Positions 8,301 to 62,979 of a stretch of 64,000 nt of DNA are shown here, one piece after another. Origin of the DNA: Gari tellinella (Eukaryota > Mollusca > Bivalvia > Cardiida > Psammobiidae); the NCBI GenBank assembly GCA_922989275.2, contig OV277872.1, forward strand, positions 33,025,619 through 33,089,618. The letters run 5' to 3'. The position numbers and the translations under genes are program-made. The notes beneath the pieces were generated by a model. That model saw only the letters and a program-made list of their open reading frames with translations. It was not told the origin of the DNA and searched no databases. Each line of letters opens with the position of its first letter. Position 1 is the first letter of the stretch.

Positions 8301-11300
8301 GACCCTGTTCAGAGGGCTCCTTAAGGAGCCCTCTGATCAGGGTCAACACTGTTTGCATAGGACAAGTGTAATCCTCACAGGTATGCTTTTGGCAAATGAT
8401 GCATCTATGCGTAACTGGGGTTCAAAGAGTTAATATATTCGCCCTAGCCTTGCTTTCAGGTTTAAGTTTTTTCGACAACAAACTTTCACTGACCATATTG
8501 TCTTAATTTGCCTCAATCAATTTGAAATTCCGCTCAGTTGTACAGTATTATCTAACCTACGTGCAAGTCCCATAACTCTGTTAATATTTTAAGAGTTATG
8601 CACCTTTTTACCCCTTACACATTTTAGGTAGTAATAGTTGCTTTCATTCTACCTTACTGGTTGTACAGTGGAGAAAACGTTATTCTTTCCCAATAAACGC
8701 GTTTACGCTAAAACTATTATTTGCTGTGCAAACAGTTTGGAGCCAGATCAGACGCCGGGTAACCCGGCGTCTGATCAGGCTCCAAACTGTTTGCCACCAA
8801 GATAAACAAGAATTATCAGAATTGTCCAAAAGTTGTTCTTTTCTACGTTTTAGTGCTTTGCTTTTGCGTACGTTTGCGTTTAAACGGGAAAGAATAACAG
8901 ATTCTCCACTGTATGCTCAGTAGAGAGATTGAGATGTAGCTGAGCTTGTGATCCTGTTGAAAGTGTGTGCTATTATTTTTTCGTTACAGATGCTCGTTCG
9001 TATAAGTGCAAAATATGTGAGAAAATGTTTTCAAGTAAACAGACTCAGCAAGAACATGTAAGGCGACATGCAAAGATGAAAATAGAGGCTTGTGATATTT
9101 GCTCTAAAAGGTAGTATGCTACAGCTTTCATAAATAAGCCTTTGTAGCTCACCAGAACATAAAGTGCTCAAAGTGAGCTATTGTGATACCGCTCTGTCCG
9201 TCGTCCATCCATCTTTCCGTCAACAATGGCAAACAACATTTCTCTGAAACCAATTGACCCAGTGTGACCAAACTTGGTCAGATACATTCTGTTGGTTTGA
9301 GCTTCAAATGTTGTTCAAAGAAAGTGGATGGGGCTTATGATCTTGTTGCCATGGCAACCATGTACCAACTCTAGAAAAATCTTCTTTGAAACCACAGCTC
9401 TGATTTCAATTTGGTTTTCACCAAAATGCTTTTCTATGGATAGAAATTCAAAGATGTTCAAAGAAGTTTGATTCATCAAAAAATATCGCTGCCTGGCAGA
9501 GAGGATAGTCATTTTCTTTGTTCGGTTAAATTGAATGAAAAGTTATTTTTGGTTATATCGTAAAGAGATTTTGTCAGTGTCATGTCTTTAATTAATTTAG
9601 GTCATTCATGAATATAGGTCATGTTGGGTCATAAAATAGGTCAGTAGGTCAAATCGTAGAAAAGGCTTTTGGTCTCTCCAGGGGTCATACTTATAGCCTA
9701 ATCTTCTTAAAACTTGCTTAGAATGATCATCTTGACAAAATCTAGGCAATGTATGAATATGGGTTACATAAGGTTCAAAAGTAGGTCATTTTAACCCTAT
9801 TTATAAGCCATATTCTTTAGCTGCAAAGTCATAAAACTTGCTCAGAATGACACCTTGATAAAATCTAGTGTATAGCTATATCAAAATGTTGCCTTGCCCA
9901 GTCAACTTAGGTACAGTGTCTTCAGGTGAGCGAATTGAGGGCCATGGGTCTCTTATTATACCTTTCTTTATTTCTGAACAAAGGAAAGTAGTCCCAATCT
10001 TAGAAGTCCTGAAAATGACACGCACAATAACAGAATGACTGATGGACAAGATGATACCTATATATCCCCACCACAGGTGGTGGGGATATAATAATTGTAT
10101 TAACCCATTACCCCATAAATACGCTTTTTATGCCTATAAAGAAGAAAATAAATCCAATTTATAGTGTTACAAATAAGAATCATAAGAACTATTTTCTATA
10201 TTCTAGCAGATAATAGCTTAAAGCAGGCTGAAAGTAAAGCAAAATGCGCTCTAAGGCGCATTCTGCTTTACTTTCAACCTACTTTAAGTGGTCACCCATT
10301 TTGAAAACTAGTAACATTCTATGGGGTAATGAGTTAAAGACAGGTGACAGCTTAAAGCAAAATTAAAGTAAAGTAGAAAGCTTGTAAAGGAGCTTTCTGC
10401 TTTGCTCTTATCTTTCTATAACCCATTACCCCATAGCCTGTTTCTAGTTTTGAAAACAAGTTACCAATTAAAGCAGGTTGAAAGTAAAGCAGAATGTCCC
10501 ATAAGCCACTATCTACTAGAATATGGAAAATATTTCTAAGGGTACATATTTGTGACTGTATAAAATAGAACTTTTTTCTTTACTGGAGGAATGAGTTAAA
10601 AGGTGTATTTATGGAGTAATGGCTTAAGCAGCCTTGTATCTTACCCACTTTAGCCAAGAAAGGGCACATTATCTACAGTGTGAGGATGCACTTGTCCTTT
10701 AATTGCAGACTATGAAGATTCAGATCAGAGGACTCCTAAAGGGCTGAATAAATTGTAAAACACAACACTTAATAGTGACAGTTTACACCCTGGCTACACA
10801 CTGAAAACTCAACTGAACTTAGTGGTCTTTTAGAGTTGTTTCTATGTATATGTGTAATGTAAATTTGCCGACGAATGTGGTCCAGTGATAGAAGGCTAGA
10901 CTGCGGTACCAGGGGTCATGAGTTTGATCCTCCGCCGGTTCAAATCCTTCGTATGAGACTTTATAAACTGAGGTCCGATTTATCATTGCTTTACACTTTG
11001 CATCTAAAAAACCAGAGAACTCTGTTGATAGTAAGAGTAGGGCCTTGCACCCACCACCTTGGTTTTCTGTATCTGCTCCCCTTTCTCTGGGGCGTCTTAT
11101 TAGCTGTTGACTGGCAGAAATAGACATTAACAAACAAATAAAACCTTCTAAATAATCTGTTAAGTGGTATTAAGCAACCAGCCAATAAAATGCCCATTAG
11201 TAGTCTATTAATACAAATGACTCATAAATGCAGGATAACAATAATACAGAAAGCTCCTATAGGAGCTTTCTGTATTATTTTTATTCTGCATTTGGCAGTC

Positions 11301-19927: not shown

Positions 19928-24595
<4,668 letters not shown>

Positions 24596-32672: not shown

Positions 32673-32791
32673 ATGTTTCGCCCAGCCGCAGCTGCGAGAC
32701 ATGTCGTCCAAAAGGGCATTCAAAGACGAACCCTTGCTATCGCATCGAAGTGTAGATCACAGACTTATCTTAATCAAAATAACACCACAAG
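32673..32791 (+). CDS. DLAT: DLAT exon 1, mitochondrial presequence
   Basis: ATG in good context (A at -3) opens 39 codons plus two bases, ending at AAG|GTTGGT. The peptide starts [19 protein letters not shown]: Arg/Lys/Ala-rich and without acidic residues, as in a mitochondrial targeting sequence. Phase 2 at the donor fits the acceptor at 41792-41793 (AG + A = Arg). The assignment rests on that phase match and peptide character, since presequences are not conserved. It needs an RNA read across the 9 kb intron. Confidence 0.72.
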
Positions 32792-35700: not shown

Positions 35701-38700
35701 GGAACGTATACTCGTTAACCATTCCGACAACTTCCAGCATAGATCGCTTTCGCGGGCAGTGTGTTAAAGTTTTGCTGTAAAGACGAATGTTCTAGTTTCT
35801 GGGAATATTTGCAGGGTTGCCATTTCTCTGGATTTTTCCTAAATCTTCGGATTTTTTTTCTAGTACATGGTAGCTTAAAGCAGGCTGAAAGTAAAACAGA
35901 TTGCGTCTTAAGGCGCAGTTTGCTTTACTTTCAGTCTGCTTTAAGCAGTCACGTGTCAACAAAACTAGAAACAGGCGACGGGGAAAAGGTACGATTCGTA
36001 AAATCGCACTTGAAAAATGCAAATTTGGAAACCTTCGGATTTTTTTTGTCAACTCATGGCAGCCCTGTATTTTCGTCACTAGCTTTCGCGCGTGTTTACT
36101 TAAAATGATTAATATGGCTATCGGCACAGTGATGACGGGACGATTTGCAGTAGAGAAAACGTTTGCATTTCTCAATCAAATATTTAGCAATTTTTCCTTT
36201 GCACAATATTTGGACCCAGATAAGACGCTTTGTACAAGGCGTCTGGTCTGGATCCAAACTGGTTGAAAAGGAATTATCAATTTTGCACAAAATCGTTTAT
36301 TGTTCAAAACAAATCGTGTAATTTCTCCATTGTGACTTGTGCTGCTATTACTATGCCAAGGCTCCAGATAAGAGGAGTATTTCAAGAACTAAAATCTTTA
36401 TTTCTGCATTAAACCCTATGGTGTCACTACTCACTAGAATCGTCTCTTCGAGACAATTCTAATGAATAGTAACACCATAGGATTAAATGTTGAAATGAGT
36501 GAGAAAATTTGGATTTGTTCCATATACTCACTCTTATCTGGGGCTTTATATCTGCCACACCGGATGTGCGCCAGACTGTGCGGTTAACTAGATGTCCGCC
36601 ATTACTGTGCAGTTAACTAGTTAACTGCATGGTTTTCTACCAGTTATTGCATGGGCGGGGAAACTCCGCCCACTACAAAGTGTGCGGTATCCAACTTAAA
36701 CTGGGGTACTTTTCTATAGAAAAATGCCGCAGCCGTGTTACAACTTTCTGATAGGTCATAAAACTATTCTTAATCTTATCAGTTTGCTAATTAATGCAAG
36801 GGGTACAGCAGCGGACAATTATGCTGCATACCTCAAGATTGCAATGAAGGCAGGATTCATAATCCCATCACACATTGTCAATTTGTTTGTAGTCAATTGA
36901 CAGCCATTGTGAAATGTCTGTCACATTTATCATAATCTTTCAACTTTACACAATGAGAAAATCAGATGTTATAGTTGAACGTTTGATCTACTGGCACATT
37001 ATTTAAGCATATTCTTTGCAATCTGAACACCTCACAGTCATATCAAAGCTCCTAATGGTCTACCGGATCACCCACTGTCTCATCTACATCCGATCTTCTT
37101 CCACTCAGCTTCTTCCACTCAGCAACCCTCAGTACTGGAGGTCACACAGTAAGATACATATAACCTTTCTGTGTACGGAGGTGTACCTCCATTCCTTCTT
37201 CCCCCTCCACCAACTTCCAGAAGTTCTGAACACACCATGATGGCTGACAGCGTCATGGCCTTCAAGAGGTGCCTGGTCTCTACCCACTAGGACATTAATT
37301 GAAGAAAGAAGAAGAAGAACATCAACGTATGAGGCTTCCAAGAAATAACGATTTCAAGGCCAATCCAATCAAAACTCCTCACAATTTTCGTCATTCGTAA
37401 TTTATATTTGGAGGGTGTGGGAATTAACCTGTTAGTTTCAATTATTATCAAACAAAGCTTCCACTAGAGCATCGTGAATTTCTTCTTCTTTCAAGTTGAC
37501 GTTTAGTTTTAGCTCATTCCTGATTCCTGTCATTTATAGAAGTTTGTTGTGACTGATGAAAATGTCTCGCCTACAAATGAGACAAAAGGTTTCTATGTGA
37601 ATTGTCTAATAAAATATTATTTCCCTGAAATATCGCTGGACTGGTTATATTACTGTTAGCGTGATTGTTTTTAAAGCCCGTCATCGAAGAACGTATTATG
37701 GTATACCCAGCGCTGTCCGTCCGTCCGTTAACTTTTCTTGTTAGCACTCTCTCACCTCAATTTATTTAAACTTCCTACAAATATTCCTTACCACAATAGT
37801 TCGGACGAGTTCGCGTTTCAGACTTTGGCGGTTATTTTTAACCGAGTTATATGCCCCTTTATTGTCAAAAATGGGCATTATTTAAAAAAATCCAGAACTT
37901 TTTTTATTATTATTCAATTGATTTCAAATTTAATATGGTGATACAATAAATGAAGTTACTTAACATATATTACCGGTTTTTGGTTTGACTCCGTATTTTC
38001 AGAGTTATGCCCCTTCACACAATTTTTTTAACAATATATTGTTTCCTGATAATAATTTTACTTACATTTTGTCTATTGTAACCAAATTTCATATTTATCT
38101 TTCTTATCATGCAGAGAAGGCACCTGTGAATTTTGGTTCCTGTTAAATTATTTTTCTATGAGTTATGCCCCTTTACATACTTAAAATTTAAAATAAGCCA
38201 CACATCGTCTGTAAACTTTTCTTCTTAGCGCTCTCTCATCTTCATTTATTGACTGATTTTGATTAAACTTCCTACAAATATTCCATACCACAATAGTTCG
38301 AACGAGTTCGCGTTTCAGACGTTGGCGACTGTTTTTAGCAGAGTTATGCCCCTTTATTGTCAAAAATGGGCATTTAAAAAAAAAAAAAAACAGAACTTTT
38401 TTATTTTTTATTCAATTGATTTCAAATTTGATATTGTGATACAATGATTGAAGTTACTTAATATATATTACGGGTTTTTGGTTTGACTCCGTATTTTTAG
38501 AGTTATGCCCCTTCACACAATTTTTTTAACAATATATAATATAATTTGTTTCATGATAATAATTTTACTTACATTTTGTCTATTGTAACCAAATTTCATT
38601 TTACTTACATTTTGTCTATTGTAACCAAATTTCATATTTAGCTTTCTCATCATACAGGGAAGGCACCTGTGAATTTTGGTTCCTGTTAAATTTCAGACGT

Positions 38701-41700: not shown

Positions 41701-44700
41701 GAATAAAATAAAGGTGTAAAAAGGTGTTTTTTATGGGGGAATGGGTTAGATGTTATATGTAGTTGCTAATAAAAGAAATATTGTCTTTTTAAGACTCCAG
41801 CAAGCTGCGCCAAAACATTGTTTGAAAATGGCACCATGTCTTCATCACATAAGGCACTACACTTCAGGTAATTTACTGGTTTTATTTGTACAAAGCTTAA
41901 CCTATTACCCCATAGCCTATTGAAGATAGGTTACCACTTTACTTAATTAACCCTTTCCTCCCTGAAACCTCAAATGGACAATTCTGGTTTTCGATTTCGT
42001 CTAGTCTAGTTTGGACATTTTAGGCATGATATTCAATATATATGTCAAAATGACAAACAGTGTATACCCTGGTCTGAGGGCTCCAATCAGGGTCTACACT
42101 TTTTGCATAGGACAAAATTTAATATACTCCTCACAGCCATGGGTTCAAAGAGTAAAAACATATTGAAAGTAAAGCAGAATGTGACATAAAGGCACATTCT
42201 GGTTTACTTTCAACATGCATTTAGCTACCATCTGCTTGGATAAAGAAATATTTCTATGGTGTAATTCATGACTGAATAAAGTGGAACTCTTTTCTTCAGA
42301 ATAATATGCGCAAAAAAAGGCATACTTATAAGGTAACAGGTTAAGTGAACAACTGAACATTGACTTTTTGGCTAATTATTAATGTAACTTTGGCATGAAT
42401 ATGATAGTTTACCTAAAATAACTTTAGGTGAATGTTAATATTGCCTCAAGAACATTTTAAGAAATAGGACATAATTAGTCAAAATTAATGCAAGGCTTTT
42501 GGACTTGTAAGGGAATGATGGTAGACCTAAACAAGTGGGGGTGGAGATTGCTGTTTAAAGCAGGCTGAAAGTAACACAGAGATTTTCTGTACTCACTGCT
42601 TTACATTTTCATGCTTTTAGCAGCCTACCATAGGGTTTAATGCAGAAATGAAGATATTGGTTTTCCAAATACTCCTTTTATCTGGAGCCCTGTATACTTT
42701 GTAGTTTGCATAAAGGGCCCAAATTTCCGCTCCAACAGCACCCTACATTACTGCTTTTCAATATATTTTAGATTTACCTGCCCATTTTAAGATTGCTCTA
42801 CCAGCACTGTCCCCAACAATGGAATTCGGCACAATTGTCAACTGGCAGAAGAAAGAAGGGGATAAGGTATCAGAAGGGGACCTGCTGGCAGAGATTGAGA
42901 CAGACAAGGCCACAATGGGGTTTGAATCTTCAGAGGAAGGTTATTTAGCCAAAGTTTTCATTCCTGAAGGGAGTAAAGATGTTCCAATTGGAAAGGTACA
43001 GTGGAGAAAACGTTATTCTTTCCCGTTTAAACGCAAACGCAAAGCACTAAAACGTAGAAAAGTGCAACTTTTGGACAAATCTGACAAATCATGTTTATCT
43101 TAGTAGCAAACAGTTTGGAGCCTGATCAGACGCCGGGTTACCCGGCGTCTGATCTGGCTCCAAACTGTTTGCACTGCAAATAATAGTTTTAGCGTAAACG
43201 CGTTTATTGGGAAAGAATAACGTTTTCTCTACTGTAAGATGTGTTCATTCTCAAGCATTCATGACGATTTTATTAAGATTCCTCAATATAGGGTTTTGTT
43301 GGGACATAAAAGAGAAATGTCATCTAAACGCAGTCAAACCTTTAGGAGCATTTTGATTTACTTGAAGCAACCACCTGTCTTACTAAGAACAAGGTATTGG
43401 GGAAATGTTTTGAGAGAGTGTAAAATACATTTGTACTCCTTTGAATAGACTTATAGTGCACAGCCACTATATTTTGTTATGGTCTTGCTCAAATTTAATA
43501 TCTACCCTCTAATTGCTATCACTGAAAAGGTCCTTCTTGATATATATACACATTACTAGTTTGTGGTGAGATACAGGGTGATGTATTCAGCTTCAGATGT
43601 TCTTGGTAAGAAACAGCCGATCTGAAGAGCGTCCTGTAATGCACCCCCAAGTGATGATTTGTTTTATATATGCCTTCAATATATTACAACCAACTACAAT
43701 TAGATTTCATATCCATTTAATATCCGGATAGATTTGATATTTGAAGTAGAACAAGAATTATTTTATGCCACAACAAATAACGTGGAACTTGACTATCTAC
43801 AGGACAAAACACGTATCGTTAACAATGTCAGAGTAAAGTACAAAACAGTAAAATACAAAGAGTAAGATACAGACTCTTAACCCAATTCCCCATAGCCAAT
43901 TTCTACTTTTTGAGACAGGAGACCACTTAAAGCAGGTTGAGAGTAAAGCAGAATGTGTCTTAAGGCACAATCTGCTTTCCTTTCAGCCTACTTTAAGCTA
44001 CCATCTGCTAGAATATAGCAAATATTTATATTCATGTATAAATTTGAACTATACTCTTCAGTGTAGGAATAATTTATAGGCATAAAAAGGCGTATTTATG
44101 GGGTAATGCATTAAATCTTACTGTACAGATACATGCAAAAAAGCTTGATAAATCAGGAAAGCACATACTTAGTATTGTTAAGATATGTTATAACACATGC
44201 TTTATTTTACAGCTTCTATGCATTATTGTGGAAGAGGAGGGAGATATTGCAGCCTTCAAGGACTTTGTACCTACTGCAGCAGACGACACAGTAGTAGGAG
44301 GCGGCAAAGCTGCCCCGCCTCCTCCTCCACCCACACCTGAGCCAACTCCGCCTCCAGCAGCTCCAAAGCCAGTCCCTGTTGCTCAGGCTCCGCCCCCTCC
44401 TCCCCCATCTCAACAGCCAGCGCAGACTTCAGCAGCACCTGGGACAAGAATATTTTCAACACCTTATGCCAGAACTTTAGCTGCTGAGAAAGGGGTGGAT
44501 CTTAGTGTAAGGCATATACAGTACAGCCTCTCTATTACCACCACTGTTTACAGAAGTTTTGGTGTTAAAGACAGGTGGCTGCTTAAAGCCAGATTTAAAT
44601 CTGGCTTTAAGCGATCATCTGTCTCTAGATATATCAATAATCAATGTTATTTTTATGAACAGAACAGAACATGTTTTGTTTTATGGTTGTTAAAGAGAGG

Positions 44701-47700
44701 TCTTATTGTACAGTTTTGAAGATAATTTATCACTTAAATATAAAATAGGTTGAAAGTGAAGCAGAATGGGCCTTAAGGTTTATTCTGCTTTACTTCCAGC
44801 CTGTTTTAAGCTATCATTAGCTTAGATATACAGTTAGAAAAAATTTAATATGATTCATAGTCATGACTGCATAAATTTAATTCATCTCTTCAATAAAAGA
44901 ATAAATTCAAGGCATATCAATGAAGTAAATGATTAAAGCAAGACATACAGAAGCTCCTGTAGGAGCTTTTTGCATTAATTTCTATTGTCCTGCATTATCC
45001 CATAGATACGCCTTTTGGCATCTTTAATTTTTCTCGTCAGATGAAAATACTTCTAATTTATACTTTTATGAATATGTATGATAAGAACTATTTTCTATAT
45101 TCTTGCAGATTGTAGCTTAAAACAGGCTGAAAGTAAAGCAGAATGCGCCTTAAGGCGCATTCTGCTTTACTTTCAACCTGTTTTAAGTATTCACCATTTT
45201 CAAAACTAGAATTAGGCTATGAGGTTATGAGTTGAACAACCACTATATTATAAGGCTGAAAATTCACTTTCTTATGAGTGACTACTGTACAGACAACAGG
45301 TTTTACATTTGTATATCAATTTGGTCATCTGAAGAAGAGTGGTGTTATGCTGTCAAATACAGTGTTAAGCAGGTTGAATTTAACCTTAACTGTCGGTCAG
45401 TAATTTACAGAGCCAGACTCTTTAGGGCAAAAATGGTGTAAACTCAATATCTCATTGATTTTCAAGCAATATACATCATACTTCATAAGAACTTTCGTTA
45501 CTACAGGGCAGGCCATAAGTTGATCTTGAAAATTCCTTAGAATTCAAAATTTTCCATTATCAGGCGCGATAACTTAAAGCTGGTTGAAAATAAAGCAGAA
45601 TTCTGCTTTACTTATGCCTGCTTCAAGCTACCATCTGCTAGGATAAAAATCTGGAATATTGGAGCCCTGTTACTTAATTCACAAAACGTACATGAAAAAG
45701 ACCAATATTATTTAATTTAATAAGCTAAAGGTTCATAATTATTTTCATTTCCTTCATACATGCCACACTAGGGCTTCAATTGAATTTCAGTGCACATATA
45801 AAAAAAGGAAATACTTTTAGCATTTCATATCTTTTCTTATTATTTTTTCTTCAAATCCTATGTTGTGACTTCTCATTAGAACCCCACTGAAGCGACGGTT
45901 CTAATAAGTAATCACAATAGCAAGGTTTGGTTAAATCTTTCAACACTAAGTTTTTCAAAGCCATAAGACGTCACGTTAAGACATAACAGCAAGTGAGTGT
46001 TTTATTGAGAATTTAAACACAGATACGTTCCATATTTGTTTATATAGAGACGTGCGCGATGTGTGTTAGAATATTATTTGATCTACTCTCGTCTGGAGCT
46101 GTGCCATGCTATTTGACGTCTACATGTCTTTTGTAACTTATAGATGGTTGCCGGTACAGGACCAGATGGTCAGATACGGGCAGATGACGTGATGAACTTC
46201 ACACCAACTGCAGCACCCGCTGCTCCTGTAGGAATGCCTGGTGCTGCCCCAGGGGCCTATGTAGATATACCTCTAACAAGTATGAGAAAGGTAACTATTC
46301 TAATCAATAAAGATGAATATAGTGCTCACTCCCAACAATGGCCCTCCCAACAACGATTCCCTCCTTACAACGACCCTTGCCACAGTTCCCTAAAGACAGT
46401 TATTACCAACCTCTTCACGGCTGCAATATCATCGGCATAAAATTGTCGTCTGCTGTTTTTCTCAAATTTACGTATTGGATATTTTGACAGAAAAACACAT
46501 AATGACAAGTGACAAGCAGCTTGAATCCAGATCAGACGCTGCATAACGTGGCATCTGATCTTGATTCAACCTGTTTGCAAATGTAATCCAATTTCTCTCT
46601 CTATAAAGACTCCCTCTGATCAACACACACATTCATTGTCTCCCTTTTGCTTTTGTTGTAGAGAGGGAGCACTGTATTCTAATCAATAAATCACCTGTAA
46701 TAAGCTGGATTACTGAACTACTGTTAAATGTACCGTAAAATCATAGCAAATCAAATTAAAAATGAATAGTGGTGGGTATCGGATAGAAGGGAGTAAATTA
46801 TATTTTTTCTGACATTTTCTCATTTTTGTCAGTTTCAAACCCTATTGTGTGATTACTCATAAATATGATATCTTTGAGAGGGCCCTATTGAGTAGTTTTA
46901 CCATAGATTTGGTTGTGATTTATAACAGATATTTTGATTGTCAATAAGAATTTTTATTATTTTTATAAAAAGTCCTATATATAAATATTGACAACTCAAA
47001 CACAATTATTAATTCAAATGTTATTCATATTTTGAATTATTAGATACAGTATTTTAATCAGCTTTCAGTTTTCATAACAAGGAATTATGGATTCCATCTT
47101 CATAATGTATATTTTACTTCTGTTTCAGACTATAGCGAAACGACTAACACAGTCTAAACAAACTATTCCACATTATTATCTGACAATAGATGTGAATCTC
47201 GAAAAAACCCTACAGTAAGTGTTCAAATTATTTGTTTGTTTCAGTGTTTTCATAACTGTTACCCCATAGTCTGTTTCTGTATCCCAGCAGATGGTAGCGT
47301 AAAGCAGGTTGAAAGTAATACAGACTGCACCTTAAGCACATTCTGCTTTACTTTCAGCCTATTTTAAGCTACCATCTTCTATTCATAAATGTATAAAGTG
47401 GGACAATTTTCTCCATTGGAGAATAAACTAAAGGCATAAAAAGGCATATTTATGGAGTAATAGGTTAACATTATTCAGAGTTCAGGATCTGATAAGAGAG
47501 AGTATGAAAAAAAATTCCATGCTTTCTTTTATATTTCTGCTTCAAACCTACAGATGTATCTAGGCTTGATGTGATGACTATAGGGCAAAGCCAAAATAGA
47601 CTAAACATTTAGTTCCACAGAATTATTGTTAAAAATATGAATAACTAGCAAATTTGGGGCCTGATCCAGATTCAAACTGTTTTACACTAGGTTTAAGTTT

Positions 47701-50700
47701 CTGCAGAACTGAAGTTGAAAACAACCAATTGCCTAAGCCATCAAAGCTGACAAAATGATAATTGGAAAATTATTTTGTATGCAAAGAAATGATGTAAAAA
47801 ACAAATGCTAAAATCTGTTGTATGTTAACTCTTTGCATGCTAGCGGCGTATATATCCTCAGTGATTAGTTTTGCAAACAGTTTGGATCAAGATGAGACGC
47901 TGCATAATGCAGCGTCTCATCAGGATCCAAATTGTTTGACACTCTGACCAGGGTGTTTTGAAAAGAAATTTTTAAAATTCTATTTCTAGAACAGTAACAG
48001 ACGACAATTGTTGCAGACGAAAAAATTACCCAGCTTGCAAAGAGTTAATGAATTTTATGGGGTTTTTTTTTTCAGATTGAGAAAAGAACTAAATGCAATA
48101 CTCTCCAAGAAGAACAAAAAAATCTCTGTGAATGACTTTATAATAAAGGCGTCTGCCATGGCCTGCAAACAAGTACCGGAGGCCAACTCTTCCTGGCAGG
48201 ACTCATTTGTAAGACAGTAAGTATGAAATAGTACCTGGTAAGCAAGTGTTAACCCTTTCAACCCTAAACTTCTCTTGTGGGTAGTTAGTCCTTTTGGACT
48301 CTTCTAGTACAAGTATTTAGAACCAGTCTACTGTTACGTTTTTGCTATGACAACAAAAACCAATGAATCTATCAAACAGTGCAGCCCTCTGATCAGGGTT
48401 TACACTATTTGCATTTTTTATCAGTAATCTCTGTAGGGTTGAAAGGGTTAAAGCCCTTAGTCAGCAGGAGTGCCTCTGGACACCTCACCCGCATTACACA
48501 TTAGGGGCAGAGCTCCAGATAAAGGGAGTTTTTTAAAAACTAAAATCTTTATGCCTACACGAAACCCCTTGATGTGACTACTCGAAGCAAAGATTCTAAT
48601 GAGTAGGCACAACATAGAGTTTGGTGGAGGCATAAAGGAGAAAACATTGAAAATATTATAAGTGGTTTACACACTCTTATCTGGAGACCTGATAAGCACC
48701 ACGAATGATTACTCAGTGATGATGTTGAAAACAGATGGCAGTTTAAAGTAAGGAGAATGTACAGCAGAAAGGTCCTTAAAGGATATTTTTGTCTTACTTT
48801 AAGTTCGCTTTTAGCAGTCACCTGCCTTAAACACTGTTGGATATATCCGATATGCAGTTGTGGCTATGGAGGAAAAGCTGAGGAAGCTGTGAAGATTTCC
48901 ATTTTGTTCTCATCAAAATTAATATTTATGCTCATGAGTCATTGAATATAAATCAAATATTGCAGGTTTCATTTTATTTCTAAAGCTCGTTCAGAAAATT
49001 TCAAACATCGATTTCTAAGTTGTCCTCGGTCATAACCAGCTTACACCTAATTTGGCTGAAATGCACTTAACTATTGCACTTAAGGAACTGTGTCTCATAT
49101 TTTATTCATCTCACCTTTAATTATGCAATGATTATTCTTTAAAAAGCTAGATGAAGACAGAGAAAAAACATGAGCAGGCAGAGCTCCAGATACGGGTAGT
49201 TTTTCAAAAACTATAATCTTTATTTCTGAATTAAACCCTATGGTGTCACTACTCATTAGAATCGTCTCTTCGGGACGATTCTAATGAGTAGTAACACCAT
49301 AGGATTTGGTGCTAAAATGAGTGAGAAAATGGTTGATTTGTTGAAATAACTCCCTTTTATCTGGAGCCCGGGCAGGGTTCTCTTCGCTGTTACAATATGC
49401 TTCAAACTGCATGAACATCAAGCATCAGTTATACAACCATGCATGTAAAAATACTGCTGTTAAATAATTAAGTGTCAATGCTTCAATTAACTGCAAAATG
49501 TGTTGTGTTGAAATGTCTTTGTCCCAAACAGTTAGCATGCAACATGATGTTATTAAACTGATTTATAGCAAATGAAATGTAACAAGTCTTATATGATAAA
49601 GGTTTACACAATCCGTAGAAAAGATCGGAACATCCCAAATCAACATGCGTCTCTAAACCAAATGCTTTTCCAGGGCTTCGGATAAGGGGAGTATTTCAAA
49701 AATGAAATTCTTCATTCCTGCATTAAACCCTATGGTCTTGACTTGACTTGATCCTGACTTTATTTTTCAACTGCTGCGGGTGTCCCAGGGTGTCACTACT
49801 CATTAGAATCATCTCTTCGAGACAATTCAAATAAGTAGTAACACCATAGGATTTGATGCAGAAATGAGTGAGAAAATATTGGATTTGTTCAGTTTACTCC
49901 CTCTTATCTTCAGCCCTGTTTTCTTAGTCCAGAATGGTTACGTTTTTGGCAGATCTACTTTATGTGATTTGTTCTGATGGCTTTGAAGAAACTGGTTAAA
50001 CCCTTTACTCCGTTACCTGTGTCTAAGTTTTGAAGACAAGTGACCACTTAAAGGAGGTTGAAAGTAAAGCAGAATGCACCTTAAGGCACATTCTGCCTAT
50101 CTTTCAGTCTGCTGAGAAAGAGAGAATATTTCTTATATGCTGCATATTCATGACTGTATAAATTGGAACTATTTTCTTCAATAGAGGAATGAATTAAAAG
50201 CATAAAAAGCATATCTTTGGAGTAATGGGTTAGCAAAATAACAAATTGTTTCAAAAAATAAATATTTTTTTAAAACTTCTGTATGACCAAACCTTTGGAC
50301 TTCATTTTTAGTGTGTATTGTGACATACATGTATTAGATTAAATATTTTGAGAGAATCAGAACTCCAGATAAGGGGAGTATTTCAAAAACTAAAATCTTT
50401 ATTCTGCTTAAAACTCTATGGTGTCACAACTCATTAGAATCGTCTCAAAGAGACGATTCTAATGAGTACTAACACCGTAGGATTTGGTGCTAAAATGAGT
50501 GAGAACATGTTGGATTTGTTCAGTTCTCTCCCATTTATCTCGAGCCCTGAGAATGTACTAATGGATGTAGTTGCACGGCTTTTAGACGGGAGTAGATATT
50601 GAGGCAGGTAACGCTGGTTTTAAAATGACCTTTATTGTTTACCCGAGGGTTTGTTTAAACACACATCCATAAAAGTAATATTGCATAAATGGAGAATAAT

Positions 50701-53700: not shown

Positions 53701-56700
53701 ACATTAAAAAGCTGAAAATGATATTTTTGCGGACAACAATTTCAAAGTTGATGATAATAAAGCTAGCAAATCCTGATCTAGAAGACTGATCTGTTTGCTA
53801 TAATTGTTTTATTTATTTTGTGCAGGTTTAATACAGTAGATATCAATGTAGCCGTAGCAACAGATGCAGGACTGATTACACCCATAGTATTTAGAGCTGA
53901 TCTTAAGGTAAGCTGACTAACTGATAGTCTTTACTCCCCCCCCCCCCCCCCCCCCCTCCCATCCACACATGAAAACTTACAATTTGATCACTCTGCACCT
54001 CTGCAATCTACATTTATCCATTACTCCATGCCCTGTTTCTAGTTTAGAAGACATGTGAGCACTTCAAGCAGGTTGAAAGTAAAACAGAATGCGCCTTAAG
54101 GCGCATTCTGCTTTACTTTCAGCCTGCTTTAAGCTATCTTCTGCGAGAAGATTCAAGATAGAAAATATTTCTTATGAAACATATATATGATTTATAAAGT
54201 TGAACTATTTTCTTCATTGGAGGAATAAATTAGAGGCGTAAAAAATCGTATTTATGGGTTAATGGGTTATTTAAGTTTTGGGTTTAGGCCAGTTGTGGAC
54301 TTAGTACTGCACCTAGTGTCATAAAACTTTGCATATATTCTAACACGACTCGAAACCTACGGCATATAGACAAAGAATACCAAGAAACGTATATTACGCA
54401 GTGATAATGAACTGCACTCGCAGCGTTTCCATACGCTGTTCCATTTGCCCCATACGCGTAATACATAAATAATATTTTTATGATAATAGTCGCGTTAAAA
54501 TTAAAATTTGTTATTTCTTAATTATAACACGACGCGAAACCTACGGCATATAGACACAGAATACCGAGAAACTTATATAACCCCCGCGATAATGAACTCA
54601 CGCACGGCGTTTCCATCCGCTGTTCCATTTGCCCCATACGCGTAATATATAAATAGTATTTTTATAATAAAATTTGCGATAGAATTAAAATAACAAATTC
54701 GTAGGTGTTCATTACCGTGCATTAGATCACAGTTAGTCGTTGAGATGTGGGTAATTAGATAATTCGGCCTAAAGGCTTCGTGATCTAATGACTCCACATC
54801 TCAACTCCTAACTGTGATCTAATGCACGGTAATGAACACCTACAAATTTGTTATTTCTTAAATGTGCCTTTAAATTTGATTGACCTTGACCTCTGTGGCC
54901 TATGTTAAGATTTTGCATTTAAATCAGGTTAGGATTATAGTGTTTTCACTGATGGTCAAGTATATTACAAACAGGGCTCCAGATAAATGTAAGAAAAACT
55001 GAACGAATCCAACAATTTCAGTTTTTATTTCAGTATCAAACCCTATGGTGTTACTACTCATTAGAATTGTCTCGAAGAGGATATAGAAATATTTTTTATG
55101 ATACCAATTTTGGCTATAAATTTGAACTATTTTCTTCGGTGGAATAATAAATTAAAGGCGTAAAAAGACGAATTTTGTTGGTAATTGGTGGTATGAATGT
55201 TATGATCACATCGGTGTAAATATTTTCAGGGTCTAGCCCAGATTGGTGAAGATGTGGGAAATCTAGCAGCAAAGGCCAGGGAAGGAAAACTTCAACCACA
55301 AGAATTTCAGGTGAGAATTCAATAAACAATAGTTTTTACTTGCAGGACTTGTGTCCAGGAGAGCTTAAGTCGTAGGCATATGGGTTGTCACCCATTTATT
55401 GGCAATGACACAATAAACACATTCAAATCTAGCAAGTAGTGTCCTCATCATTTGCAAACAGTATACTTGTGAAGAATACACTTGTGTTTGCAAACAGTGA
55501 AGACCCTGATCAGAGGGCTCCTAAAGGAGCCCTCTGATCAGGATCTGCACTGTTGTATCAGTTTGCAACATGTTCTAATAAATACTGCTAGATAGTATGA
55601 GTCACTCTCATTTTATAAAATCATTAATTCATTTCATTTTAGTAAAAGATGAACTAGACTTAATTAAAGATAAAAAGAAATTCATTTGAAGTGTAGGGGA
55701 TGAATGAATTAAGCAGGTCCCGCTTGAAGTAGACATAGAGAGCTAATACCATGCTATTTATTTTTTTCTAACTCCAGGGAGGCACTTTCACCATTTCCAA
55801 CCTTGGCATGTTTGGTATCAAATCTTTCTCAGCTGTCATCAATCCACCTCAGGCCTGTATCCTGGCTGTGGGCGGGGCAGAGAAGAGACTGGTCGTGGAC
55901 GATGAAAGTAACACTGGGTAAGGATTGTGGAATCAGTACTCTACTAATTCAGATGAATGAAGATAAAAGATGATGAATGCACATTCTGTAAAACAATGAG
56001 TCCTTCAGACAAAAATTGAGTCCTTAAAAGTATTACTGCTATCTAGGATGAATGCGTGGCCCAAAAGAAAGGATTCATAGCTTAACCCATTACCCCTAGC
56101 CTGTTTCTAGTTCTGAAGATAGGTTACCATTTAAAGCAGGTTAAAAGTAAAGCAGAATGTGCCTTAAGGCATATTCTGCTTTACTTTCACACCTGCTTTA
56201 AGCTACCATCTGCTAGAATAATGATTTTTTTTTCTTATGATATACATTTGCATATATGTATTACTGTATAAAAAGACGTATTTATGGGGGAAAGGGTTAA
56301 GGCAGAACGAGAATATAATTTAAATTTGTGTCTTTTAGAGTTTTTGGTATGCATTCACTCTTTATCTTATAGCCTGTTTCTAGTTATGAAGACAGATTAC
56401 CACTTAAAGCAGGTTGAAAGTAAAGCCGAAAAAGCAGAATGCGCCTCAAGGCACCATATTCTTTACTTTCAGCCAACTTTTAGTAACCATCTGCTAGGAT
56501 ACAGAAAATATTTCTTTTTGTGCATTTATATGACTGTATAAAGTGGAGCTATTTTTTTCATTACTGGAAAATATTAAAGGTGTATTAATGGAGTAATGGG
56601 TAATAATTTAGATGATGTTAAAGCAGGATCAGGGTTTACATTATTTAACCCATTACCCCATAGCCTGTTTCTACTTTTGAAAATAGGTGATCACTTAAAG

Positions 56701-57695
56701 CAGGTTGAAAGTAAAGCAGATTGTACCTTAAGGTGCATTCTGCTTTAATTTAGGCCTGTTTCAACCCTTCCCCCCATGGAAGCGCCTTTAGCGCATTTAA
56801 TTTATTCCTCAACCGGTAAAAATAGTTCCAAATTATACAGTAATAAATATATGTAGAATATATATGTAAAACAGATGATAGCTTAACCCTTTCCCCCATA
56901 GCATATCTCTTGTATTGAATATAGGTGTCCACTTAAAGCAGGTTGAAAGTAAAGCAGAATGCGCTTTAAGCGCATTCTGCTTTACTTTCAGCCTGCTTTA
57001 AGCTATCATCTGCTAGAATATAGAAAATATTTTGTATTATACATATTTATGAATGTATAAATTGGAACTATTTTCTTCAGGGCAAGAATAAACTGAGTGC
57101 GCTAAAAGGCGCTTCTATGGGGGAAAGGGTTAAAGCAGGCTGAAAGTAAAGCAGAATGCCCTTAAAGCAGTACAATATTTCTCATAGAATATATTCATGC
57201 CTGTATAAAGTCAAACTATTCTCTTCAGTGGAAGAATAAATTAAAACCATTAACCCTTAGCCCGCCAAATAAATTGTCGTCTGCTATATTTCTCGTCTGC
57301 TTCAAGTTTCAAAGTGCTTCAAAGTTGCTCAAAATTGCTGAAAATGTTGTTCCGAGTGTCAAACAGCTTGGATCCGGATGAGACGCCGAGTTACTCGGCG
57401 TCTCATCCGGATCCAAGCTGTTTGCATATGGAGCTATAGTCGTGAGTGGCAGGCTAAGGGTTAAAACCATTAAAAGGCATAATTATCAGGTAATCGGATA
57501 AAGAGCAAAGCTATAACACAGTCATATAACCAAAATATTCATGTCTTTGTTCTTGTGTGTTCCAGATACTCGGAGGCCACAATGATGTCAGTGACTTTGA
57601 GCTGTGACCATAGAGTAGTAGACGGTGCAGTAGGAGCTACATGGCTGGCAGAGTTTAGGAAATACTTAGAAAACCCATCAACCATGTTGTTATAG
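32673..57695 (+). CDS. DLAT: Pyruvate dehydrogenase E2, dihydrolipoamide acetyltransferase (whole gene span)
   Basis: Eleven coding exons join in phase to 506 codons with stop: 32673-32791, 41794-41867, 42772-42995, 44213-44506, 46144-46290, 47129-47214, 48076-48216, 53826-53907, 55230-55310, 55778-55917 and 57566-57695. The enzyme forms the core of the mitochondrial pyruvate dehydrogenase complex and passes acetyl groups from lipoyl-lysine to CoA. Residues 1-40 are an Arg-rich presequence without acidic residues. One lipoyl domain spans about 66-150, with the lipoylated Lys in ETDKA near residue 110. A Pro/Ala-rich hinge and the E1/E3-binding domain ([24 protein letters not shown]) follow. 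The catalytic domain carries [25 protein letters not shown] and DHRVVDG (His near 478, Asp near 482) and ends in NPSTMLL, very close to animal DLAT. Human DLAT has two lipoyl domains; only one is encoded here. All ten introns carry foldback elements. Confidence 0.95.
33318..34969. mobile_element. 1.6-kb foldback element in DLAT intron 1
   Basis: The outer arms, ACAGGGAATCGGCTCATAGT at left and ACTATGAGCCGATTCCCTGT at right, are inverse and continue through CTATATATAGATAATATAAT. Inner arms also pair (GAAGAGAAGTTGTCG near 33870 against CGACAACTTCTCTTCCGAG near 34680). No coding capacity. A SINE is inserted in the left arm. Confidence 0.85.
33398..33674 (-). repeat. tRNA-Arg-derived SINE, inserted in a foldback arm
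   Basis: On the - strand the head reads TAGCTCATTGGTAGAGCG (A box) and GGTTGTGGTTCGATCCC (B box), with anticodon loop TTTCGAG (TCG). The body ends near CGACGTTAAATCAAGCTTGC. The uninterrupted right arm of the host foldback shows the empty site. Confidence 0.85.
34970..35354. other. No gene or repeat recognised
   Basis: AT-rich DLAT intron 1 sequence. Confidence 0.5.
35355..35492. repeat. Short foldback element
   Basis: ATATATTGCATAGCTCCCAC and the inverse GGAGATACTGCAATATAT enclose arms around TTAAACGCGC and a GTGCGCGCATGCGCAC centre. No second copy here. Confidence 0.7.
35812..36067. repeat. Foldback element, family K
   Basis: CAGGGTTGCCATTTCTCTGG to CTCATGGCAGCCCTG, inverse ends. The core is family A-like (TTGCGTCTTAAGGCGCA). 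Same family as 1075-1348. Confidence 0.8.
36190..36290. repeat. E/G-type core remnant
   Basis: GACCCAGATAAGACGCTTTG against AGGCGTCTGGTCTGGATCC; imperfect palindrome with family G-like sequence around it. Confidence 0.6.
36358..36548. repeat. Foldback element, family D
   Basis: GGCTCCAGATAAGAGGAGTA to CTCTTATCTGGGGC; core CGTCTCTTCGAGACAATTC. Confidence 0.85.
36549..37690. other. No gene recognised
   Basis: Includes repeated GTTAACTAG motifs (36580-36630). Short open frames at 37016-37341 on both strands have no domain I recognise. Confidence 0.45.
37735..38750. repeat. About 497-bp tandem duplication
   Basis: Block with CCACAATAGTTCG, GAGTTCGCGTTTCAGAC, GAGTTATGCCCCTT and ACTCCGTATTTTCAGAG at 37735-38215, repeated from about 38220. 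A third partial copy of the TTTCAGACGTTGGCGACTAT block ends near 38740. The GAGTTATGCCCCTT motif is a frequent bivalve repeat in my recollection. Confidence 0.8.
38778..41365. mobile_element. 2.6-kb foldback element in DLAT intron 1
   Basis: The ends CCTAGGTTGGCGCCAGCC and GGCTGGCACCAACCTAG are inverse. Inside, 39440-39590 (TATAGCTCTGCATATAGCAG, CAGAATTTGAAAAAGAAAAG) is matched inversely by 41030-41180 (CTCTTTCAAATTCTG, TATGCAGAGCTAAATATAAG). A C-type core remnant (AGTGCAAACAGTGCAG) lies in both arms. The middle, 39700-41000, is unique here and holds a small palindromic block at 40505-40700 rich in TCGCCAA/TTGGCGA. No transposase recognised. Confidence 0.75.
41491..41749. repeat. Foldback element, family A
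   Basis: Complete copy ending 44 bases before DLAT exon 2; core GCGCCCTTAAGGTGC (arms no longer equal). Confidence 0.85.
41794..41867 (+). CDS. DLAT: DLAT exon 2
   Basis: 74 bp between the acceptor ATTGTCTTTTTAAG and the donor CTTCAG|GTAATT. It encodes a basic stretch ending RHYTS, followed across the junction by DLPAHFK. Animal DLAT proteins have RxYYS-LPxHxK at the same place, just before the lipoyl domain. A nearby acceptor at 41799-41800 would be out of phase with exon 1. Confidence 0.82.
41945..42345. repeat. Family C and partial family A elements
   Basis: Family C at 41945-42155 with one core arm shortened; partial A at 42160-42345. Both lie in DLAT intron 2, with a family D tail fragment at 42638-42694. 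Confidence 0.75.
42772..42995 (+). CDS. DLAT: DLAT exon 3, lipoyl domain
   Basis: 224 bp, phase 1 to 0. It encodes [23 protein letters not shown] and the lipoylation loop [12 protein letters not shown], then [10 protein letters not shown]. The donor is AAG|GTACAG, and the bases from +4 on belong to a family E foldback (42999-43234). Reading on through the element meets a stop at 43101-43103. Confidence 0.96.
42999..43234. repeat. Foldback element, family E, inside a DLAT splice donor
   Basis: 236 bp from CAGTGGAGAAAACGTTATTC to AATAACGTTTTCTCTACTG with a TA duplication at 42997-42998 and 43235-43236. Perfect core palindrome 43106-43172. The left TA supplies bases +2 and +3 of the donor of DLAT exon 3. 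Confidence 0.93.
43535..44114. repeat. Family L repeat followed by a family A element
   Basis: Family L at 43535-43876 (matches 5757-6178) and family A at 43877-44114, both in DLAT intron 3. Confidence 0.75.
44213..44506 (+). CDS. DLAT: DLAT exon 4, end of lipoyl domain, hinge and start of binding domain
   Basis: 294 bp, phase 0 at both ends; acceptor TTTATTTTACAG, donor CTTAGT|GTAAGG. It encodes the last lipoyl strand ([15 protein letters not shown]), a mobile Pro/Ala hinge with several proline runs, then [21 protein letters not shown] family B element starts 13 bases after the exon. Confidence 0.95.
44519..44708. repeat. Foldback element, family B, beside a DLAT donor
   Basis: CAGTACAGCCTCTCTATTAC to GAGAGGTCTTATTG; the core is GCCAGATTTAAATCTGGC, a palindrome unlike the usual B core. 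It begins 13 bases after the end of exon 4. Confidence 0.75.
44716..45236. repeat. Two family A elements and a B core
   Basis: Diverged direct copy 44716-44937, B-type hairpin 44940-44992 (AGCTCCTGTAGGAGCT), inverted full copy 44994-45236 with core GCGCCTTAAGGCGC. Confidence 0.8.
45237..45830. other. No gene; one family A fragment
   Basis: A fragment of family A lies at 45560-45650; nothing else is recognised. DLAT intron 4. Confidence 0.45.
45830..46080. repeat. Family D fragment and inverted family M fragment
   Basis: Family D-like 45830-45935. Family M 5' part, inverted, at 45963-46075 (CGTGCGCGATGTGTGTTAGA at its outer end). Confidence 0.7.
46144..46290 (+). CDS. DLAT: DLAT exon 5, binding domain end and second hinge
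   Basis: 147 bp, phase 0 at both ends. It encodes [15 protein letters not shown], a second Ala/Pro hinge and [10 protein letters not shown], the start of the catalytic domain. The first codon is Met but is internal, following DLS from exon 4; it should not be taken as a translation start. Confidence 0.94.
46316..46925. repeat. Family F and family D elements
   Basis: Family F at 46316-46675 begins 26 bases after DLAT exon 5 (core CAGACGCTGCATAACGTGGC); diverged family D at 46783-46925. Confidence 0.75.
47129..47214 (+). CDS. DLAT: DLAT exon 6, catalytic domain
   Basis: 86 bp, phase 0 to 2; acceptor TCTGTTTCAG, donor CTACA|GTAAGT. It encodes [20 protein letters not shown], a signature of acyltransferase E2 proteins. 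It is too short to stand out as an open reading frame. Confidence 0.96.
47255..47600. repeat. Family A and diverged family D elements
   Basis: Family A at 47255-47466 with a short core; D-like sequence at 47480-47600 (GATCTGATAAGAGAGAGTAT). DLAT intron 6. Confidence 0.7.
47826..48047. repeat. Foldback element, G-related
   Basis: AACTCTTTGCATGCTAGCGG to CAGCTTGCAAAGAGTTAA; core GAGACGCTGCATAATGCAGC. It ends 28 bases before DLAT exon 7. Confidence 0.8.
48076..48216 (+). CDS. DLAT: DLAT exon 7, catalytic domain
   Basis: 141 bp, phase 2 to 2. The acceptor is a run of ten T then CAG, and the donor GACA|GTAAGT. It encodes [40 protein letters not shown] and a short end FVRQ. A family G element ends 28 bases upstream. 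Confidence 0.96.
48249..48696. repeat. C-related and D foldback elements
   Basis: 48249-48451 has inverse ends AACCCTTTCAACCCTAAAC / TGTAGGGTTGAAAGGGTTAA and a broken C-type core. Family D at 48508-48694. Confidence 0.75.
48720..48840. repeat. Family B core remnant
   Basis: AGCAGAAAGGTCCTTAAAGG hairpin with degraded arms. Confidence 0.55.
49182..49371. repeat. Foldback element, family D
   Basis: Full copy; core CGTCTCTTCGGGACG. Confidence 0.85.
49672..49918. repeat. Foldback element, family D, with a small insertion
   Basis: Normal until CCTATGG, then about 55 foreign bases (TTGACTTGACTTGATCCTGA...) before GTGTCACTACTCATTAGAAT resumes. Confidence 0.85.
49996..50232. repeat. Foldback element, family A
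   Basis: Complete; core GCACCTTAAGGCAC (arms unequal). Confidence 0.8.
50358..51004. repeat. Two family D elements
   Basis: 50358-50550 with core CGTCTCAAAGAGACG and 50819-51004 with degraded core; 270 bases of unrecognised sequence lie between them. Confidence 0.85.
51005..51610. other. No gene; unrecognised intron sequence
   Basis: Two inverted blocks, GGCCCCGAGGTTATAAAACT (51151) and TTTTATAACCTCGGGCCC (51343), suggest an old 200-bp foldback. Confidence 0.5.
51612..52015. repeat. Split family D element around an inverted family C element
   Basis: D-like left part at 51612-51720, a family C copy in inverse orientation at about 51722-51915, then D-like GTCTTTGAGACAATTCCAAT to 52015. This suggests nesting. 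Confidence 0.65.
52049..52252. repeat. Foldback element, family I
   Basis: GGGGCCTGTTTTACTAAAC and GTTTAGTAAAACGGGCCCC. The centre is a G-like CAAATAGCCAGAACAGAGGA palindrome rather than the usual I core. Confidence 0.8.
52356..52681. repeat. Family C element with a SINE-tail-like insertion
   Basis: After TCCTCCCTAAAGCTTT the element is broken by about 70 bases (52381-52448: GGCTCTAAATGACC, GATGGGCCGTAAAACACCA, then (ATTC)4) and resumes with CCCTAAAGCTTTAAATGGAC. CCCTAAAGCTTT is duplicated at the two edges, a likely target duplication. Confidence 0.85.
52806..53632. repeat. Three family D elements in a row
   Basis: 52806-53001, 53048-53240 and 53442-53632. The last two have the perfect core AGAATCGTCTCTTCGAGACG. 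Confidence 0.88.
53826..53907 (+). CDS. DLAT: DLAT exon 8, catalytic domain
   Basis: 82 bp, phase 2 to 0. It encodes [20 protein letters not shown] and VFRADLK. It is preceded by a 5.6 kb intron full of family D elements. Confidence 0.96.
53936..53960. repeat. Poly-C tract
   Basis: A run of about 21 C bases, 30 bases after the donor of DLAT exon 8. Confidence 0.9.
54016..54269. repeat. Foldback element, family A
   Basis: Complete; perfect core GAATGCGCCTTAAGGCGCAT. Confidence 0.85.
54331..54860. mobile_element. Family M element with an internal tandem duplication
   Basis: Starts TTCTAACACGACTCGAAACC. A block of about 190 bp (ACCTACGGCATATAGACA ... CCCATACGCGTAAT) occurs twice (54335-54520, 54528-54690). 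A strong hairpin 54695-54850 follows with arms GTAGGTGTTCATTACCGTGC, and the end is TTGTTATTTCTTAAAT as at 28130. Confidence 0.8.
54973..55195. repeat. Truncated family D joined to a truncated family A
   Basis: D breaks off inside its core (ATTGTCTCGAAGAG) at about 55078 and continues as the right half of A (GATATAGAAATATTTTTTAT). Confidence 0.75.
55230..55310 (+). CDS. DLAT: DLAT exon 9, catalytic domain
   Basis: 81 bp, phase 0 at both ends. It encodes [20 protein letters not shown] then LQPQEFQ. The donor is TTTCAG|GTGAGA. Confidence 0.96.
55440..55712. repeat. Foldback element, C-related
   Basis: Core GGCTCCTAAAGGAGCC; fills most of DLAT intron 9. Confidence 0.75.
55778..55917 (+). CDS. 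DLAT: DLAT exon 10, catalytic domain
   Basis: 140 bp, phase 0 to 2. It encodes [39 protein letters not shown] and DDESNTG. These form the conserved core around the CoA and lipoamide sites. Confidence 0.97.
56081..57132. repeat. Cluster of four to five family A elements
   Basis: 56081-56300, 56363-56605, a copy starting 56646 and broken near 56760 by an inverted piece, and 56883-57132 with core GCGCTTTAAGCGC. DLAT intron 10. Confidence 0.8.
57250..57463. repeat. Foldback element, family G (inverted)
   Basis: Near-identical inverse of 21980-22182, including the perfect core GAGACGCCGAGTTACTCGGC. Confidence 0.88.
57566..57695 (+). CDS. DLAT: DLAT exon 11, terminal exon with the catalytic histidine
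   Basis: 130 bp ending in TAG at 57693-57695. It encodes [20 protein letters not shown] then [20 protein letters not shown] and LL. DHRVVDG holds the catalytic His and Asp. A degraded copy of the last 60 bases lies downstream at 57772-57825. Confidence 0.97.
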
Positions 57696-62730: not shown

Positions 62731-62979
62731 TGACCCTTTGAACCCTAGTCACGCCTATAGGCGTCCTTTTCAAACAGTGTCCATGTGAAGAGTATACTTG
62801 TACTGTGCAAACAGTGAAGACCCAGATCAGAGGGCTCCGAAAGGAGCCCTCTGATCTGGGTCTTCACTGTTTGTCATAATGCCAATCACTGACAAAAACA
62901 ACCCTGAAAAGTCAGATATGGACTGGACTAAAATGGAAACTGGAATTGTCCATTTAAAGTTTCAGGGAGGAAAGAGTTA
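62731..62979. repeat. Foldback element, family C (inverted)
   Basis: Full copy, core GGCTCCGAAAGGAGCC; ends with GTTTCAGGGAGGAAAGAGTT. Confidence 0.88.

Follow-up and report, generated by a model that had tools for sequence, protein, structure and literature searches.

The window analysed here, a stretch of 64,000 nucleotides from the genome of the bivalve Gari tellinella, carries a homologue of the core energy-metabolism gene DLAT, which encodes the pyruvate dehydrogenase subunit E2. By tblastn of three DLAT homologues we mapped the exons listed in Table 1, which extend over 32673-57692, as far as the C-terminus, and are free of stops within the matched stretches; exon 2 was looked for and was not found. 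The impression of an intact gene, given in a first-pass annotation of the same DNA made from the letters alone, extends to all the exons that were found. The third exon of that annotation encodes the lipoyl domain (phmmer to DLAT chains, E=1.2e-62). Among the matches listed from the 1.6-Gb assembly, a single one covers this exon in full; the other 40 reach no further than base 73 of the query, in a stretch upstream of the exon. No second intact copy of it is present among these best-scoring matches.

The junction of this exon with the next one (42995/44213) gives a gap-free alignment to 120 homologues, the best 120 of 7986, and the residues at the junction are GKLLC or GKLVC in the six homologues that we inspected. 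Among the homologues listed, the closest named one belongs to the clam Mactra antiquata (72%), and a protein search returned no near-identical sequence (best 77%). The gene has a single lipoyl-domain exon, and the six inspected homologues also look single-domain, while mammalian-type chains have two such domains.

Table 1. Features of the DLAT gene and of the inserted element, in positions of the window (a slash marks an exon edge or junction)
Feature	Position	Strand	Basis or remark
DLAT first coding exon (matched stretch; end unsettled)	32673..32744	+	tblastn, E 0.002 and 0.001
DLAT lipoyl-domain exon (exon 3 of the first-pass annotation)	42772..42995	+	224 nt, ends in phase 0; phmmer, tblastn
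Next DLAT exon	44213..44506	+	joined as DVPIGK/LLCIIVE
DLAT exon, donor AAG/GTAACT	46144..46290	+	tblastn
DLAT exon (matched stretch), donor ACA/GTAAGT	47126..47214	+	tblastn
DLAT exon, donor ACA/GTAAGT	48076..48216	+	tblastn
DLAT exon (matched stretch), donor AAG/GTAAGC	53827..53907	+	tblastn
DLAT exon (matched stretch), donor CAG/GTGAGA	55224..55310	+	tblastn
DLAT exon (matched stretch), donor AAA/GTAACA	55772..55907	+	tblastn
Last DLAT exon, with DHRVVDG and C-terminus TMLL	57567..57692	+	tblastn
Near (proximal) donor GTACAGTGG	42996..43004	+	predicted U1 pairing with bulged C+4
Left TA of target-site duplication	42997..42998	+	TA on both sides also in 37 of 39 other copies
Element copy in DLAT intron	42999..43234	+	236-bp Tc1/mariner-like MITE
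Left terminal inverted repeat CAGTGGAGAAAACGTTATTCTTTCCC	42999..43024	+	26 bp
In-frame stop upon far-donor use	43101..43103	+	ORF end; second stop immediately after
Inner palindromic core hairpin	43106..43172	+	common to other repeats in the window
Right terminal inverted repeat	43209..43234	+	1 mismatch in 26 against the left repeat
Far (distal) donor-like site ACT/GTAAGAT	43234..43240	+	donor matrix, U1 pairing, frame
Right TA of target-site duplication	43235..43236	+	sequence
Second complete copy of the family	8666..8911	-	flanked by TA on both sides, same ends

A transposon inserted at the TA of a DLAT donor

The lipoyl-domain exon terminates in GGAAAG at 42995, and the intron opens at 42996 with GTACAGTGG, an exon edge that we read in the same way as the first-pass annotation. 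This near donor is a composite of one host G, the TA of a target duplication, and the letters CAGTGG of a transposable element. Deletion in silico of the element and one TA gives the empty site AAAG/GTAAGATG, which places the insertion point at the TA of donor positions +2/+3. It had been proposed from the first reading that a TA-bounded element hit this dinucleotide, that its removal restores a consensus donor, that the duplicated TA rebuilds GTA at the exon edge, and that a second donor-like site survives at the far end. All of this was borne out when we re-read the sequence, with the element delimited at 42999-43234, the restored donor AAG/GTAAGATG scoring 7.22, and the second site present as ACT/GTAAGA at 43234.

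Complementarity is 96% across the 28 nt of the end arms (42997-43024 and 43209-43236, TA copies included) and 97% in an inner palindrome (43106-43138 with 43140-43172). The second complete copy in the window is identical to the DLAT element at 223 of 236 aligned positions. We searched the family in the assembly from which the window comes (1.6 Gb in 80 contigs), where the best-scoring 39 other copies all begin with CAGTG and end with ACTG; TA lies on both sides in 37 of them, the two others being flanked by TA and TG and by AT and TA, respectively. Against the majority sequence of 40 copies, the DLAT copy has diverged at 3.8% of positions. A pattern holding both ends and the TA flanks gave 86,199 forward and 86,213 reverse matches, and none in the reversed control. 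Since the element ends are nearly palindromic, these counts correspond to about 86,200 complete copies, each counted on both strands. No match to the element patterns was obtained in viral contigs and prokaryote contigs.

CAGT ends on terminal inverted repeats are a hallmark of the Tc1/mariner superfamily. The present family combines such ends with a TA duplication, and it is short, non-coding and of high copy number, its 236 bp being too short to encode a transposase. Judged by these letters, it fits a non-autonomous, TA-target, Tc1/mariner-like MITE. Foldback (FB) elements have very long inverted repeats that make up most of the element and are built from short direct repeats. Here we found end arms of 26-28 bp plus a separate inner palindrome, and no direct-repeat family of at least 12 nt, and the label "foldback" of the first-pass annotation is better replaced by Tc1/mariner-like MITE.

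A chance origin of this structure is very unlikely, given the second window copy with the same ends and TA, the 39 similar copies in the genome, and the predicted stability of the hairpin (z = -17.6). That the hairpin is instead an old conserved part of the DLAT intron, with no insertion at all, is barely credible: the same element is found at other TA sites by the tens of thousands, the DLAT copy has diverged little from its family, and the TA duplication is exact and leaves a consensus empty site, while a search for points in support of an old conserved hairpin returned none. We therefore regard the insertion of a transposon into the DLAT donor as close to certain.

Two candidate donors and their products

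If the far donor were used, the message would gain 238 nt (remainder 1) and its frame would shift. It would also run into the in-frame stop to which the first-pass annotation had pointed, with a second stop right behind it, and far-donor use would thus be destructive. The far site was for this reason rejected as a productive donor. Skipping of exon 3 would also break the frame, as this exon is 224 nt long. From the translated sequence, then, the near donor is the one predicted to give the conserved protein, and the far donor is not. The frame would be kept exactly, since the TA duplication and the CAGT tip are predicted to put the new donor on the very base of the old one. Taking together the conservation of the protein and the energy models given below, it is probable that the near donor is used at DLAT exon 3.

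The TA duplication left a GT at both ends of the element, so that the site for U1 was cut in two: the near site retains the exon half (AAG/GTA) and the far site the intron half (GTAAGAT). We scored the donors with a simple matrix of human frequencies. With this human-frequency matrix the empty site reaches 7.22 bits, a value that some 0.06% of the window's 7026 GT sites attain, and the far site (1.69) stands slightly above the near one (1.06). The near site is without G+5.

A different picture emerges from the predicted duplexes with U1, in energies that ignore pseudouridines, U1-C and U6: the near site comes to -7.9 kcal/mol, between the far site (-4.3) and the empty site (-9.5). The near value is reached in the register AGGUA(c)AGUG, in which C+4 is bulged and nine pairs are predicted with the U1 5' end, and pairing is thus predicted to be better with one bulged nucleotide. 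It is this CAGT tip that would make the bulged-register rescue possible. Among the hexamers following AAAGGTA without G+5, 79 of 3072 pair with U1 as well as the near site does, as do 108 of the 7026 GT sites of the window; at least as well as the far site pair 892 of 7026. The near site pairs more strongly than four of the seven other DLAT donors that we read, one of these four having its best duplex out of register. The first-pass annotation had called this donor weakened, a description that needs refining, as the bulged register is predicted to give it -7.9 kcal/mol, a stronger pairing than in those four donors.

With the tips of other TA-target elements, the predicted pairing is -7.9 kcal/mol for Tc1, -6.8 for Sleeping Beauty and -8.7 for pogo, while it is weaker for Stowaway (-5.6), Mos1 (-5.6) and Himar (-6.5).

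Folding of the element and access of U1

The RNA of the element is predicted to fold to -133.7 kcal/mol, and none of 200 shuffles was as good. Because the arms include the TA duplications, both GT sites lie at the base of the stem, and the earlier suggestion that the arms could pair in the RNA and bring the two sites together agrees with the predicted fold. The cost of opening the near site is 3.4-5.5 kcal/mol at ten transcript lengths up to 43230, then 11.9 at 43236 and 12.9-14.5 beyond, against 2.25 for the empty site.

We also co-folded the RNA with U1, which was tethered by an artificial linker, in an energy model that handles junctions crudely. After closure of the hairpin the unconstrained ensemble lies at -138.66, its optimum having U1 on four bases of the near site; the near 5-bp register follows at -137.65, two bridging states at -135.2 and -133.63, the far site at -132.8 and the near bulged register at -131.84. 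The gain predicted from U1 binding after closure looks small, the optimum being -134.3 with U1 versus -133.7 for a slightly shorter RNA alone. After hairpin closure the bulged register in full is some 7 kcal/mol less favourable than the unconstrained ensemble, so that it would depend on U1 binding during transcription. This speaks against the bulged register as the sole mechanism. Taken with the opening costs, the U1 ensembles suggest an advantage of the near site at both stages, through timing while the hairpin is still open and through energy when it has closed.

The two bridging states raise another reading, in which U1 would span the base of the closed hairpin as a three-way junction and use the near and far halves as one site. 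Both states are predicted to outdo the far site by itself and also, in the closed hairpin, the full bulged register of the near site; however, the plain 5-bp near state is better still, the junction energies are crude and the linker is artificial, and we know of no precedent for U1 bridging across the base of a hairpin. We hold this reading to be very improbable.

In the mechanism that we favour, the near site would be the working donor. The CAGTG tip may restore pairing with U1 through the bulge (AGGUA-c-AGUG), and U1 could bind early, as some 210-240 nt more must be transcribed until the far arm appears. In the closed hairpin, a near register of 4-5 bp would be the best bound state modelled, with the far site partly held in the stem. 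The insertion may thus be tolerated because the near donor seems to be rebuilt from the element tip and the duplicated TA, perhaps at the price of weaker or leaky splicing.

Other split donors and the target preference of the family

The arrangement AGGTA[element]TAAG, i.e. a split AGGTAAG, occurs 116 + 113 = 229 times in the genome, against 29 + 27 = 56 for the permuted GAGTA[element]TAAG and a background expectation of 60-71 (from 165,606 sampled bases). Such an excess might suggest that the family targets splice donors, as an introner-like coloniser of splice sites would. We consider this scarcely probable, for two reasons. The flanks of about 51 copies, taken on both strands in a non-random sample, have A at 0.42 and G at 0.15 in position -3, and G at 0.32 and A at 0.20 in position -2; these preferences (A/T at -3, G at -2) predict an AGG:GAG ratio of 4.5, where 4.1 is observed, and about 300 sites, so that a general target preference suffices. 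Moreover, 95 of the 100 places that we read showed no exon in our reading. The excess therefore points to target preference rather than to donor targeting, on the evidence of one flank control and of the flank preferences. For this tally 76 of 178 entries were excluded (loci L001-L016 and, from L059 onwards, the copies that had been picked for their AGG/CT flanks), and the remaining ones come mostly from loci similar to a query that contained the DLAT flanks, which makes them non-random. In the same set of about 51 non-random copies the preference extends beyond TA, C being rare at -3 (0.05), where A and T are common, and G being raised at -2.

The 100 places were drawn from the 229 and do not include DLAT. 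Exons were sought as upstream frames of at least 33 codons, with Pfam applied to 11 of the 100 loci and the rest judged by eye, a reading that misses short or untranslated exons. Within this scope we found one firm exon donor, one supported by a domain and three exon-like cases. The firm one (L085) is an exon of a C-type lectin that ends ...ACATGTACAG/GTA[element]TAAGTGA and is followed in phase by a second exon (AG/GCCACACTTGG); the joined peptide matches Lectin_C with E=1.7e-15, the second exon alone with 9.4e-12, and the first alone gives no match. There (L085 1400-2925, region G000:C2:73962457) the MITE lies in the opposite orientation inside the donor CAG/GTAAGTGA. The domain-supported case (L133) is a frame that ends at the split donor and matches PAN_1 (Pfam, E=1.1e-07). 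Open frames behind good acceptors, ending CAG/GTA, make up the three exon-like cases (L101, L127 and L155), for which PDB and Pfam returned no credible match. In these three and in L133 the frame ends exactly at AG/GTA[element]TAAG. Among the five, a second, independently identified exon was found in L085 only, and not in the other four. The split-donor arrangement is thus also present elsewhere in the genome.

In all six cases scored, DLAT included, predicted U1 pairing of the near site exceeds that of the far site by 1.7-5.1 kcal/mol. This bears on two further readings of DLAT splicing. One is an alternative 5' splice site, regulated or leaky, with both donors in use and the far form acting as an off-switch through frameshift and stop. 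The far GTAAGAT is a plausible donor, judging from the 892 of 7026 window GT sites that pair at least as well, and the predicted hairpin would bring the two sites together; against this, the far site pairs more weakly in six of six cases, and we think this reading unlikely.

The other is that the insertion is a recent harmful allele, in which far splicing or exon skipping yields products that are destroyed, the animal being spared by an empty allele or living with a reduced dosage. The similar matrix scores of the two sites would agree with it, as would the small distance of the element from its family majority and the single copy of the locus in the assembly, where the other allele is unseen. 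However, U1 pairing and folding both favour the near site, the matched exons are without stops, and similar split donors exist elsewhere in the genome, and we likewise give a harmful allele little chance. Use of the near donor thus stays our preferred account.

Comparison with known systems

Tc1 of C. elegans ends in CAGTG. In 1996 Rushforth and Anderson reportedly described Tc1 insertions that are spliced out of pre-mRNA. The DLAT element is alike in being a TA-target, Tc1/mariner-type element with a CAGTG end, the harm of which may be limited by nearby splicing; as far as the available part of the Tc1 literature goes, it differs in lying inside an existing donor, where a TA copy and the tip would form the replacement. 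In the C. elegans gene rsd-3, according to the available text, three of five sequenced cDNA clones retain 48 bp at the site of a Tc1 insertion, which the authors attribute to splicing or excision (PMC4910058). Unlike in that case as there described, use of the DLAT near donor would leave zero extra coding letters.

Introners are non-autonomous DNA elements whose target duplications supply letters of splice sites, and they create new introns in exons, carrying or recruiting both splice sites (Gozashti et al. 2022, PMC9860276). The DLAT element shares with them its non-autonomous nature and the contribution of the target duplication to a splice site, whereas it adds no intron and alters a pre-existing one at a single end. 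It does not belong with the introners, as the empty site was already a donor and the exon end joins the next exon without a gap.

Bulged U1 registers at 5' splice sites were reportedly set out by Roca et al. in 2012. They are also mentioned in two further papers (PMC9311317 and PMC8283771). They resemble the DLAT case in that U1 pairs with a bulged nucleotide on one strand; the difference is that the register predicted at DLAT would have been made at once, by a transposon end and a target duplication.

For mulberry, the part of the report available to us describes MITEs at alternative 5' splice sites and exonised MITE sequence, and there, unlike at DLAT, it describes no insertion within an existing donor (PMC6593561). 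The haemoglobin genes of Lucina pectinata, in what is accessible of their description, contain MITE-like repeats in introns for which no target duplication was identified (PMC4732748). Like the DLAT element these are MITE-like intron repeats of a mollusc, as compared by description and not by sequence, and unlike it they are associated with no splice-site insertion in that partial account (PMC4732748). Within the partial coverage of our literature search, which took in transposons and splicing, U1 bulges and bivalve MITEs, no transposon within a donor at its TA is described. Relative to its closest precedents, Tc1 splicing and introners, DLAT stands out through an old donor that a transposon cut at the TA and, with its own tip, apparently rebuilt.

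Implications

Splice-site insertions are usually regarded as gene-breaking. It is possible, if rather doubtful, that TA-target elements ending in CAGT are in general self-healing at GTA donors, where GTA-c-AGT would regain much of the U1 pairing through one bulged C and the arms would fold the far half away. If this were true, a whole transposon superfamily could invade the donors of essential genes without abolishing splicing, and introns that begin with GTACAGT would be fossils of such insertions. Were the replacement donor of DLAT confirmed by RNA, it would provide a concrete rule for the survival of splice-site insertions, a set of naturally bulged donors on which to test U1 pairing, and, in the GTACAGT intron starts, a signature to be sought in a large number of genomes. 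For annotation pipelines, some odd donors would then have a known origin.

Other repeats of the window

Diverged relatives of the element are found at 2289-2473 and 36148-36302, the former with TA on its left and CA on its right. The palindromic core of 64-66 nt (CAAACAG...CTGTTTG) occurs in 19 places of the window (43107-43171, 8729-8793, 20203-20268, 22018-22082, 57360-57424, 62808-62873 and 13 more), within outer repeat sequence that differs. We examined covariation in 19 of 21 cores, those at 45119 and 52117 having been excluded by hand. The core arms pair in 531 of 570 cells, against a mean of 421 and a maximum of 480 in 200 shuffles of the partner arms, and 23 of 30 positions have at least two types of Watson-Crick pair. 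The pairing of the core hairpin appears to be kept by something while its letters change. An Rfam scan gave two tRNAs only. Finally, recurrent short frames (FGSLYYCY and ITIIQTAKC) at 11178-14421 suggest a tandem repeat array.
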